NCBI GenBank assembly: GCA_947457545.1
Contig: CANGXD010000001.1
Span: forward strand, 1-64,000
Direction of reading: 5' to 3'
Origin: Gemmatimonadaceae bacterium
GTDB taxonomy: Bacteria > Gemmatimonadota > Gemmatimonadetes > Gemmatimonadales > Gemmatimonadaceae
Length of the DNA stretch: 64,000 nt
The position numbers and the translations under genes were made by a program. Shown here piece by piece: positions 42,679 to 63,985 of this stretch. Within the stretch, counting starts at the first letter, position 1. The number at the start of each line of letters is the position of its first letter. Below the pieces are notes generated by a model. The model was not told the DNA's origin, made no database searches, and saw only the letters and a program-made list of their open reading frames with translations.

Positions 42679-42753
<75 letters not shown>

Positions 42754-42863
42754 TAGATGGGAGTTCATTGCCACGCAGCGGGTGTATTGCCGAGGCCCAA
42801 TGCACTATGTTTGATGGCTGAACCCGCAAATCCTTTTTCACGTTGGCATACGCAGGCAATCGC

Positions 42864-43538
42864 ATGGCGCAGGCGACACGCAACCCCGTTTCCGCGGCTG
42901 GCTCTTCGGCCTCCTTGAGCGACGATCCCATTGAGTCGGTGGCGAGCTGGTTCCAGGTGAACAGCAAGCCGATTCTCATGGCGGTCGGCGGTATTGCCGT
43001 GGCGGCTGCGGCCGTGTTCGTGTACCGGAGTTCTGCGGCATCGACCCGCGAGAAGGCGTCCGCGGCGCTGTACGAAGCGCAGACCCCGTATGTGCAGGGG
43101 AAGCTTCCCGAAGCCGAGAAGGCGTTGCAGCAAGTTGCCACGCGTTACGGCAGCACGGCGTCGGGGCAGCAGGCGTCCATTCTTCTTGCCCAGGTGCTCT
43201 TCGAGCAGAACAAGGCCGACGAAGGGATCAAGGTCCTCGAGAAGGCGGTGGGGAGCGCGTCGTCCGACTTCAAGCCAAGCCTCGAGTCGCTCATCGCGGC
43301 CGGGTACGAGCAGAAGCAGGACATGCCCAAGGCCGCCGAACATTTTGCGAAGGCTGCTTCAGCCGCCACGTTCAAGGCTGACAAGTACAACTATCAGGCG
43401 AGCCAGGCTCGGAGCCTGATGTCGGCCGGCAAGCCGGCCGATGCGGCCAAGATTTGGGAAGAGCTGGCAAAGCTCGAGGGCGAGCCCATCTCGCAGGAAG
43501 CCAACGTTCGGCTCGGCGAAATCGCAGCCAAGAAGTAA
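42864..43538 (+). CDS. TPR-repeat membrane-anchored protein (YfgM-like)
   Basis: N-terminal segment with TM (SKPILMAVGGIAVAAAAVFVYRSS) then TPR-like helices. Confidence 0.7.
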   Translation: MAQATRNPVSAAGSSASLSDDPIESVASWFQVNSKPILMAVGGIAVAAAAVFVYRSSAASTREKASAALYEAQTPYVQGKLPEAEKALQQVATRYGSTASGQQASILLAQVLFEQNKADEGIKVLEKAVGSASSDFKPSLESLIAAGYEQKQDMPKAAEHFAKAASAATFKADKYNYQASQARSLMSAGKPADAAKIWEELAKLEGEPISQEANVRLGEIAAKK

Positions 43539-43557
43539 GCGGTACGGAGGGAATGCG

Positions 43558-43592
43558 CGGGCGGACGACCACACGGTTGTCCGCCCGTTTTG
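43558..43592 (+). terminator. Rho-independent terminator
   Basis: CGGGCGGACGACC ACAC GGTTGTCCGCCCG followed by TTTTGTTTG. Confidence 0.9.
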
Positions 43593-43655
43593 TTTGTGCG
43601 GGTTCTGGTACTGGTGCTCGTGGGGGAGCCGGGGCACTCGGAATGCGCCAGATAT

Positions 43656-44022
43656 GTGGACGGCATCGGGCCATTCTAGGGACAGTGTTGGGCCTTTCCA
43701 CACCGGAGCATATGCGTATAATACATGTTATGTAAACCTCTGATGGTGGATAACTGTGGGAAAAGTCCACGTGGATATCTGCTGTCTCTGTGGGAATGCG
43801 CTGCAAGCGACTGCAGAACAATGGTTTACGTATTGCGAGCTCTACCGTGTCTGCGCCAACGGCTCACGAAAACCAACTCTGTCCACCTGTCCACATGGTT
43901 TTCCGCCGTTTTCCCGACACCAGTGCGTTGGCGATTCGCCATGGGTCCGTCGCGCATTTCATGACGCCTTATCGGCCATTGCCGGCGCACGACCCAACCC
44001 CATGCCAACCCGTGCCTTCCAC
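43656..44022. repeat. Cluster of eight TCCAC/GTGGA pentamers (DnaA-box-like) flanking dif
   Basis: Exact TCCAC or GTGGA at 43656, 43697, 43746, 43766, 43771, 43882, 43890, 44018; includes GGTGGATAACTGTGGGAAAAG, palindrome TCCACGTGGA and tandem CTGTCCACCTGTCCAC. Confidence 0.6.
43711..43738. other. dif: Candidate XerCD recombination site dif
   Basis: TATGCGTATAA-TACATG-TTATGTAAACC: XerD arm 10/11 identical to B. subtilis dif arm TTATGTAAACT, XerC arm 8/11 to E. coli GGTGCGCATAA; lies at the coding-strand convergence point. Confidence 0.82.
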
Positions 44023-44038
44023 ATATGGTAACGCGAAA

Positions 44039-44062
44039 GCGGCGCCGAACTCTCGGCGCCGC
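44039..44062 (-). terminator. Hairpin downstream of dapF (probable terminator)
   Basis: Perfect 10-bp inverted repeat GCGGCGCCGA..TCGGCGCCGC; on - strand followed by TTTCGCGTT. Confidence 0.55.
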
Positions 44063-44090
44063 AGCGTGCAGCATGGGCTCGAACGCCGGA

Positions 44091-44951
44091 TTAGAGCGTC
44101 TCGATCGTCCCGCGAAAGACCACACGTCCTTCGCCCCGAAGCGTCGGCAAGTACTCTCGGGTACCGCCGGCCGACGCCACCCGTGGCCTGAGGAAGACCG
44201 TGACATCGCGACCTGAGCTCGTCAGAATCGTCACCGTGTCTCCGGATACGAGCCCCCACTCGGCCAGCAAAACGGCCGTCGCTACGGCCCCGGTGCCGCA
44301 CGCGAGGGTTTCCCCCTCCACGCCGCGCTCGAAGGTCCGGTACCGCCAGCGGCCGTCCGGCAGCGCCGAGACCCAGTTCACGTTGGCCCCCTTGGCGCCC
44401 GTCTCAGGGTGCCAGCGGAGCACCGGCCCCCGGGTGTTCAGGGCCACCGACTCCGCGTCGTTCGTCAACAGCACCAGGTGCGGGATGCCCGCAACCGCGA
44501 AGCCGACGCGCTGTTCGCCACCATCGAGCGCAATGGGAAGCGCGTCGTGGATCTCGCGTACCGGCTGAAAGTCGATCTCCGGCAGGTCGTTCAATCGACT
44601 CGTGATGAGACCGGCGCCGGTCGTCAGGCGCATGCCGGAAGGCATGGCCATGCCGATTTCCGCCGCCAGCGCGGTCGAGCACAGCGTCGCATTTCCGCAC
44701 AGATCAGCGGGGGTACCGTCGCTGTTGTAGTAGTGGATGCGTACATCGGCATCGCCCGCCAGCGCTTCGAGTGCAACCACGCCGTCTGCACCTATACCAC
44801 TGTATCTATTGCAGATGCGCTGTATCGCCTCAGGTGATGTCACAAGTGCGATGGGCACCGCACGGCCGTCGAAGAACACAAAATCGTTCCCCGATCCCGT
44901 CATCTTGGCAAATGGGAGTCCCCGCAAATCGCCAGTCACATCGGCCGTCAT
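44091..44951 (-). CDS. dapF: Diaminopimelate epimerase
   Basis: FAKMTGSGNDFVFFDGR; YNSDGTPADLCGNATLCSTALA; ERGVEGETLACGTGAVATAV. Confidence 0.94.
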   Translation of the reverse strand: MTADVTGDLRGLPFAKMTGSGNDFVFFDGRAVPIALVTSPEAIQRICNRYSGIGADGVVALEALAGDADVRIHYYNSDGTPADLCGNATLCSTALAAEIGMAMPSGMRLTTGAGLITSRLNDLPEIDFQPVREIHDALPIALDGGEQRVGFAVAGIPHLVLLTNDAESVALNTRGPVLRWHPETGAKGANVNWVSALPDGRWRYRTFERGVEGETLACGTGAVATAVLLAEWGLVSGDTVTILTSSGRDVTVFLRPRVASAGGTREYLPTLRGEGRVVFRGTIETL

Positions 44952-44952
44952 G

Positions 44953-45717
44953 TCAGTAGCGCCCCGTGAGGCCCCACCACCGTAGGCGCCAGACCATCCA
45001 GATCGCCTCGCGGACAATCCGCTTCGACATCTTGGATTCGCCTTCAGTGCGATCATGGAAGACAATGGGGATCTCCGCGATGCGGAATCCACGCTTCCAG
45101 GCCCGAAAGCTCATCTCGATCTGAAACGCATAGCCGTTCGAGCGGACCTGGTCGAGCGGAATGGCCTCCAGCACATGGCGACGGAAACACTTGAAGCCGC
45201 CCGTCGCGTCGCCGAGGTGAAGTCCTGTAATGGCACGCGCATAGATGTTCGCGCCATAAGACAACATGAGGCGCGTCATTGGCCAATTGACCACCGTGAC
45301 TTTGCCGTCCCGATAGCGCGAGCCGAGGACCATGTCGGCGTCCTTTACTGCCGCCAGAAACTCCGGCAGGTGCATCGGGTCGTGCGAAAAGTCCGCGTCC
45401 ATTTCGAAGATGTACGCGTAGTCACGTTCGAGCGCCCACTTGAAGCCGGCCAAGTAGGCGCGCCCCAACCCCTCCTTCCCTGCCCGGTGCAAGGCATGCA
45501 CACGCGGCTCGTCGGCGGCCATTTCGTCGACGAGTCGGCCGGTTCCGTCAGGCGAATTGTCGTCCACGACCAGCACGTCCAGCCGCGGATCCTGTGCGAG
45601 GATCTGCGGCACGATACGCGTGATGTTCTCGCTCTCGTTGTACGTTGGCACAATCACGACGCCGCGCTCGCCTTGTGCGAGTGAGCCGCGAGCCGGGGTT
45701 TTCATCCGTGTCATCAT
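44953..45717 (-). CDS. Polyprenol monophosphomannose synthase-like glycosyltransferase (GT2, DPM1-like)
   Basis: VVIVPTYNESENITRIVPQIL; LVVDDNSPDGTGRLVDEMA; EMDADFSHDPMHLPEFLAA; GGFKCFRRHVLEAI. Confidence 0.9.
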   Translation of the reverse strand: MMTRMKTPARGSLAQGERGVVIVPTYNESENITRIVPQILAQDPRLDVLVVDDNSPDGTGRLVDEMAADEPRVHALHRAGKEGLGRAYLAGFKWALERDYAYIFEMDADFSHDPMHLPEFLAAVKDADMVLGSRYRDGKVTVVNWPMTRLMLSYGANIYARAITGLHLGDATGGFKCFRRHVLEAIPLDQVRSNGYAFQIEMSFRAWKRGFRIAEIPIVFHDRTEGESKMSKRIVREAIWMVWRLRWWGLTGRY

Positions 45718-63070: not shown

Positions 63071-63985
63071 TCAGGAACGCGGGTGGAACTGCTTGTGCAC
63101 ACTCCGAAGATACTCACGATCCACGTGCGTGTAGATCTGGGTGGTCGCGATATCGGCGTGACCAAGCATCTCCTGCACTGCCCGCAGGTCTGCGCCGCCT
63201 TCCAGCAGATGCGTGGCGAATGAGTGACGTAACGTGTGCGGCGAAACGGCCTTCTCGATGCCGGCCTGCTCCACGTATTTACGCAAGATCTTCCAGGCCC
63301 CCATCCGCGTGAGTGGCCTCCCCTGCCCGTTCAGGAAGAGAATGCCTTTGCCATGCCCGCGCTCCAGCACCGGGCGAAGTTCGCGTGCGTACACGGCAAC
63401 GGCACCGATGGCCGAGCGGCCGATGGGGACGAGCCGCTCCTTGCTCCCTTTGCCAAACACGCGCACCAAGCCGTCCTCGAGCAGCACGTCCTTCACCGCC
63501 AGTCCGATCCATTCGGACACGCGGAGCCCCGCGCCATACGCCAACTCGAGCATGGCGCGATCACGGAACGCCAATCGTTCATCCAGCTGCGGCGCTGCCA
63601 GCAGACGGGTGACCTCGTCGACCGAGAGCACCTCCGGGAGTGTGCGCCACCGCTGCGGCGAATCGAGCCGCTCCGTGGGGTCCGTGTGCACCAGCCCCTC
63701 GGCGATCATGATGCGAAACCACGTACGAAGCGCCGAGATGTTGCGGCGGATAGAGCTACCGGCGAGTCCGAGATCCTTGAGATGGTACACGAACTCGCGA
63801 AGGATGCCGGGCGAAATGTCGCGCGCACTCGCTACGCCGTGCTCACGCAGATACGCCGCACAGCGAATGACATCGCGACGGTACGCCTCGATGGTCCGCG
63901 GAGATGCGCCTTCCTCGAGCGCGAGCGCATCTTCGAACGCCTGCAAGAAGAAGCCACGGCGCAGTGTGCGCTCTTCGTCGCTCAT
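63071..63985 (-). CDS. xerD: Site-specific tyrosine recombinase XerD
   Basis: LELAYGAGLRVSEWIGL; SPHTLRHSFATHLLEGGADLRAVQEMLGHADIATTQIYTHVDREYLRSVHKQFHPR. Confidence 0.92.
   Translation of the reverse strand: MSDEERTLRRGFFLQAFEDALALEEGASPRTIEAYRRDVIRCAAYLREHGVASARDISPGILREFVYHLKDLGLAGSSIRRNISALRTWFRIMIAEGLVHTDPTERLDSPQRWRTLPEVLSVDEVTRLLAAPQLDERLAFRDRAMLELAYGAGLRVSEWIGLAVKDVLLEDGLVRVFGKGSKERLVPIGRSAIGAVAVYARELRPVLERGHGKGILFLNGQGRPLTRMGAWKILRKYVEQAGIEKAVSPHTLRHSFATHLLEGGADLRAVQEMLGHADIATTQIYTHVDREYLRSVHKQFHPRS

Follow-up and report, generated by a model that had tools for sequence, protein, structure and literature searches.

The chromosomal dif site is usually treated as a self-contained 28-mer that is activated by FtsK alone. 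The dif sites of E. coli and B. subtilis share with the site described here the 11-6-11 layout, near-identical arms, a single copy, a switch in GC skew, converging GGGNAGGG motifs and the XerC/XerD/FtsK-gamma machinery, but not the element that is our main concern, i.e. a DnaA-box-like pair fused to the XerD side of the site. Two other families of known sites come to mind. The plasmid resolution sites cer and psi, which employ the accessory proteins ArgR, PepA and ArcA, resemble our locus in combining a Xer core with a neighbouring site at which a host regulator binds (a putative one in our case); they are plasmid sites with long accessory sequences, whereas here the site is chromosomal and the additional element is near the core and presumably bound by DnaA. 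The datA and DARS loci of E. coli likewise group DnaA boxes in a non-coding gap outside oriC, but they are not known to keep a set position and orientation with respect to dif, as the doublet reported here does.

We know of no earlier description of a DnaA-box-like pair at a fixed distance beside dif. No report of DnaA boxes at dif was found in the literature that was searched, which covered few subscription journals, and a review of Xer systems mentions DnaA only at oriC. As for the phylum, a dif site had been predicted for the one Gemmatimonadetes genome included by Kono et al. (2011; PMC3025954), by Proteobacteria and Chlorobi profiles alike. Their prediction very probably concerns this same site, in the type species, and the dif described below is therefore a confirmation and a new member rather than a new kind of site; DnaA and flanking elements go unmentioned in their main text.

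A dif site at the replication terminus

The window, i.e. the whole stretch of DNA that was analysed (64,000 nucleotides), makes up the first part of contig C1 (234,463 bp), which belongs to a draft Gemmatimonadaceae genome of 4.63 Mb, for which a complete relative is available (G020, a single contig of 4,636,964 bp). At 43711-43738 (+ strand), two inverted 11-bp arms, the XerC-like TATGCGTATAA and the XerD-like TTATGTAAACC, surround the 6-bp centre TACATG. An earlier note on this DNA had read these 28 bp as a dif site with the 11-6-11 layout, and its description matches the window sequence exactly. Hand counts give the same identities as it did, both for the XerD arm (10/11 to TTATGTAAACT of B. 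subtilis) and for the XerC arm (8/11 to GGTGCGCATAA of E. coli), and the non-coding gap of ~550 bp in which it placed the site is an ORF-free gap of 552 bp (43539-44090).

The note had also proposed to look in the genome and in relatives for a single conserved site, which is what a search with a 25-mer core (TGCGYATAA-N6-TTATGTAAAY, at most two mismatches allowed) returned. This core is present once in the genome analysed here, in 28/30 genomes of the genus and in 22/31 other genera of the family, nearly always once per genome, and a reversed control pattern gave 0 matches in the same genus and family genomes; conservation of the site is far above chance. When the 450 bp around dif are compared with relatives, most genus members keep a block of ~50-85 bp that starts at the 28-mer, and two close relatives align with nearly all of this stretch. 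Within the genus, two copies were found in G010 and G024 alone, on contigs that end near the site. Several draft genomes have two copies near contig ends, namely G010 (C159/C260), G024 (C25/C202), G218 (C48/C98), G026 (C70/C171) and G209 (C63/C119). This could be due to assembly breaks at the site, to a mixture of strains or to the integration of an element at dif.

The surroundings of the site bear the signatures of a terminus. Cumulative GC skew has its extremum at 44,000 in the 234-kb contig and, in the 400 kb examined in G020, its maximum at 1,930,500, within about 200 bp of the dif site of that genome (1,930,286), before which skew is mostly positive and after which it is negative; the extremum thus falls at the site in both genomes (locally in G020), as the earlier reading had led one to expect. 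The E. coli KOPS motif GGGNAGGG points toward rather than away from dif at a ratio of 31:2 in the contig (binomial p ~1e-7) and of 45:5 in G020 (binomial p ~4e-9). Since skew switches from plus to minus and KOPS converge here, both flipping their polarity at dif just as the earlier note had described for coding direction, the replication terminus is where it had been proposed to be. The dnaA gene is at the start of G020, 1.93 Mb from dif; in G045 and G061 the two are separated by 2.3-2.6 Mb, and the GC skew of G061 is too noisy to be of use.

The gap is bordered on the left by a gene for a TPR-like protein (42843-43538, + strand), whose synteny with dif extends to most of the family, the genus included, and on the right by the convergent dapF, which encodes diaminopimelate epimerase (44091-45092, - strand; TIGR00652 above cut-off) and which recurs beside dif across the family as well as in three f2 loci. 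The arrangement TPR-dif-dapF offers a handle for orienting draft genomes of the lineage, whose terminus is fixed by dif. The window also contains xerD, encoding the tyrosine recombinase expected to act at dif (63071-63985, - strand; TIGR02225, 354.8 bits for a cut-off of 329.6), and the homologue in G020 is 21 kb from its dif. XerC (338.1 bits for a cut-off of 335.15), like XerD above its curated cut-off, and an FtsK gamma domain are encoded elsewhere in the genome. In comparison with difSL/XerS and difH/XerH, this is a two-recombinase site with xerD ~19 kb away. Two RNA genes were seen in the window, a 5S rRNA gene at 1-91, truncated by the left end of the contig, and, just left of the TPR gene, one for tRNA-Arg (CCT) at 42679-42753.

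We consider 43711-43738 to be almost certainly the chromosomal dif site, a reading of the earlier note that is now supported by a single conserved site, the skew extremum, converging KOPS and the presence of genes for XerC, XerD and FtsK-gamma. The 28-mer does contain a TATAAT that could pass for a promoter -10 element, and DnaA-box-like sequences adjoin it as they might in an oriC, but both of these readings have a negligible probability. The change of skew from plus to minus and the converging KOPS form a terminus signature, pointing the wrong way for an oriC, and nothing is conserved upstream of TATAAT, where a -35 element would lie, in agreement with the earlier note, which had warned against a promoter. 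Nor is there a supported RNA structure downstream: the only Rfam matches in the window are the two RNA genes mentioned above, and there is hardly any covariation to support a fold of the genus alignment, for which reasons an RNA in the gap was rejected.

A DnaA-box-like doublet locked to dif

What the earlier note had missed lies immediately next to dif. Alignment of the flanks on dif reveals a second conserved block, GGTGGATAACTGTGGGAAA, which starts 6 bp past the XerD arm and whose opposite strand reads TTTCCCACA-G-TTATCCACC, i.e. two head-to-tail DnaA-box-like 9-mers separated by a 1-bp spacer. The proximal 9-mer TTATCCACC (43745-43753, - strand) is 6 bp beyond the XerD arm and reads toward dif, and the distal 9-mer TTTCCCACA (43755-43763, - strand) is 16 bp beyond it. 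They are one helical turn apart, at offsets of 6/16 here and of 5/15 or 6/16 across the family. Each of them has one mismatch to the textbook consensus TTNTCCACA, and both are close to TTWTNCACA, as the boxes of a DnaA box cluster are.

Among 27 distinct sequences of the genus, boxes with no more than one mismatch to TTNTNCACA are found at offset 6 in all and at offset 16 in 26. The same holds further afield, in 26 other loci for which dif was the only criterion of choice (three from f2, one a variant site in the genus itself, the rest from other family genera). The 40 bp next to the XerD arm contain such a box in 25 of these 26 loci (1.2 being expected from shuffles), at offsets of 5/6 and 15/16 bp. 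An exact TTNTNCACA is present in 16 of the 26 and a distal box at offset 15/16 in 21, and such boxes are few on the other strand and on the other side of dif. At the level of sequence, a conserved DnaA-box-like doublet that is locked to dif is thus established.

Spread across the phylum was assessed in 301 Gemmatimonadota genomes, 162 of which have the dif pattern GTATAA-N6-TTATGTNAA and 110 of which have it together with GTGGANAA on the XerD side, 3-20 bp away; with its orientation reversed, this box is found beside dif in 0/301. In the genomes listed, the box stands at one of only two distances from dif, which differ by 10 bp and each have a variant of 1 bp. A strict match to GTGGANAA is missing from about a third of the genomes with dif. 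In seven genomes, all from family f5, the box is on the XerC side, and most other f5 members of this 301-genome sample match neither the XerD-side nor the XerC-side pattern. At the f5 and f6 loci, no TPR or dapF neighbour is detectable within ~1.5 kb of dif and the boxes are kept, which argues that the doublet belongs to dif and not to its neighbours.

The gap holds other conserved elements. A second, inverted doublet, conserved in the genus, lies ~140 bp out from dif and is a pair of TCCAC boxes (CTCACGAA then CTGTCCACCTGTCCACA, 43863-43895, + strand), and between the two doublets, at a fixed distance from dif, there is a third conserved genus stretch (43803-43829, without assigned strand; consensus GTAAg...TTGc....AA....TTA, here GCAAGCGACTGC...TTTAC). 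This concentration of boxes is unusual, the dif gap being the only stretch of the 234-kb contig with at least three TTNTCCACA-like sites per 300 bp, and the densest TTNTCCACA-like cluster in 400 kb of G020 (six sites) being at dif. The tandem of boxes is nearly unique, since it was found at dif in 16/20 genomes searched and elsewhere in four.

A possible role in Xer recombination

The natural candidate for binding the doublet is DnaA, because the boxes fit and because the DnaA protein of this genome has GGRDHSTV in its box-reading domain (read by eye). The corresponding motif in E. coli is GGRDHTTV. Binding of DnaA to the doublet is, in our view, probable.

How might this work? XerC and XerD would bind the two arms of dif, and FtsK, upon reaching the septum along converging KOPS, would lead Xer to resolve chromosome dimers into monomers, a reaction that we infer from the known system, placement and machinery being what computation shows here. 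DnaA would bind the doublet fused to dif on the XerD side and could then act directly on the Xer-dif complex, either as a phased accessory factor or as a timer. It might, for instance, keep XerD inactive until DnaA is removed by FtsK or by the end of the replication cycle. The reason for proposing an action on the complex is that the distance and orientation of the doublet are fixed and that it travels with dif despite different neighbours; a fixed spacing with a period of one turn, together with a polarity that stays toward dif, points to contact with the Xer-dif complex and not simply to titration. Taken as a whole, a dif site with a DnaA-bound doublet acting on the Xer-dif complex is a likely explanation of these patterns. 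The more specific idea that the doublet plays a direct role in Xer recombination, which is also drawn from sequence patterns, is put forward tentatively, the case for it being nearly balanced.

Other functions of the doublet have to be weighed against this. It could be a site for titration or reactivation of DnaA at the terminus, analogous to datA or DARS, signalling the end of the cycle with no action on Xer. The several boxes in the gap, including the second, inverted doublet of the genus, would suit such a function, and the control loci known from E. coli likewise consist of boxes clustered in non-coding DNA (PMC4585315). However, a titration site would work in any phase and orientation with respect to dif, whereas here the two are conserved, and in f5, where the box is on the XerC side, it still points at dif, which makes this a somewhat unlikely account. 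A regulatory role merely using the terminus as an address is a further alternative, to which we attach no grade. The asymmetry of the doublet and the very sharp skew switch at dif (within ~200 bp in G020) could also be taken as signs of a polar fork barrier like Tus/ter or RTP/ter, with DnaA or another protein as the binder and forks meeting at dif. This seems improbable, because a fork trap would have to stop forks arriving from either direction and most loci have the doublet on one side only, and because in other bacteria the switching of skew at dif is explained by KOPS/dif selection.

The identity of the binder is a separate matter. That the doublet is bound by a different terminus protein, whose site resembles a DnaA box by chance, would account for the imperfect ends of the boxes in the genus and for the preference, at the distal position across the phylum set, for TTCTCCACA over TTATCCACA, but a head-to-tail repeat of TTNTCCACA fits DnaA boxes, TTATCCACA occurs directly before dnaA in three genus genomes, and the doublet is unlike GGGNAGGG, the polar FtsK motif found here; we regard another binder as unlikely. 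The box was also considered as an FtsK motif in its own right and rejected, GTGGANAA being mildly biased toward dif and its copy at dif reading away.

If DnaA does bind the doublet, this would be, to our knowledge, the first link between the control of initiation and chromosome dimer resolution. The doublet is a short, testable DNA element of 19 bp in a culturable genus.

Related arrangements beyond the phylum and at a possible oriC

A GTDB scan for dif together with TGTGGANAA returned, besides Gemmatimonadota, at least about a dozen contigs from Ca. Peregrinibacteria/Peribacterales (loci selected by this very pattern), whereas scattered single matches in other phyla, among the matches listed, look like chance. 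In the loci of the Peregrinibacteria type (L199, L200, L207, L212, L220, L221, L235, L237, L261, L264 and L269), the site is a palindromic TTAACATAA-N6-TTATGTTAA with a DnaA-box-like sequence 10-13 bp away, and boxes flank both sides of it in at least three (L207, L212 and L235). A gene for a Xer-type recombinase, scoring below the XerC/XerD cut-offs, adjoins the site in 4/4 loci tested (L199, L237, L212 and L264), as it does in difSL/XerS, and skew often flips from plus to minus at these sites. The similarity of this box-dif arrangement to ours is suggestive only, because the loci were selected by pattern and the counts cover the matches listed. That DnaA in a fixed register beside dif directly controls the timing of Xer recombination in Gemmatimonadota and, separately, in Ca. 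Peregrinibacteria, which would connect the final step of a chromosome cycle with the opening step of the following one, is a possibility that we hold with some doubt.

No convincing location for the oriC of the genus, with whose DnaA assembly the dif boxes might be compared, was found at dnaA, at the skew minimum or at parB. In G020, skew near dnaA (1-232000) is noisy and has a local cumulative minimum at ~44 kb, and oriC may therefore lie away from dnaA. A cluster of exact boxes was seen in G061 at ~1321802 (locus L345, C2:1320300-1323300), directly downstream of parB and 111 kb from dnaA, a position where G020 (downstream of its parB) has no similar cluster. It consists of TTTTCCACA, TTCTCCACA and TTGTCCACA, with GGCAAGCGCTTAC between, in an order of elements resembling that beside dif in the genus, and is possibly the oriC of G061.
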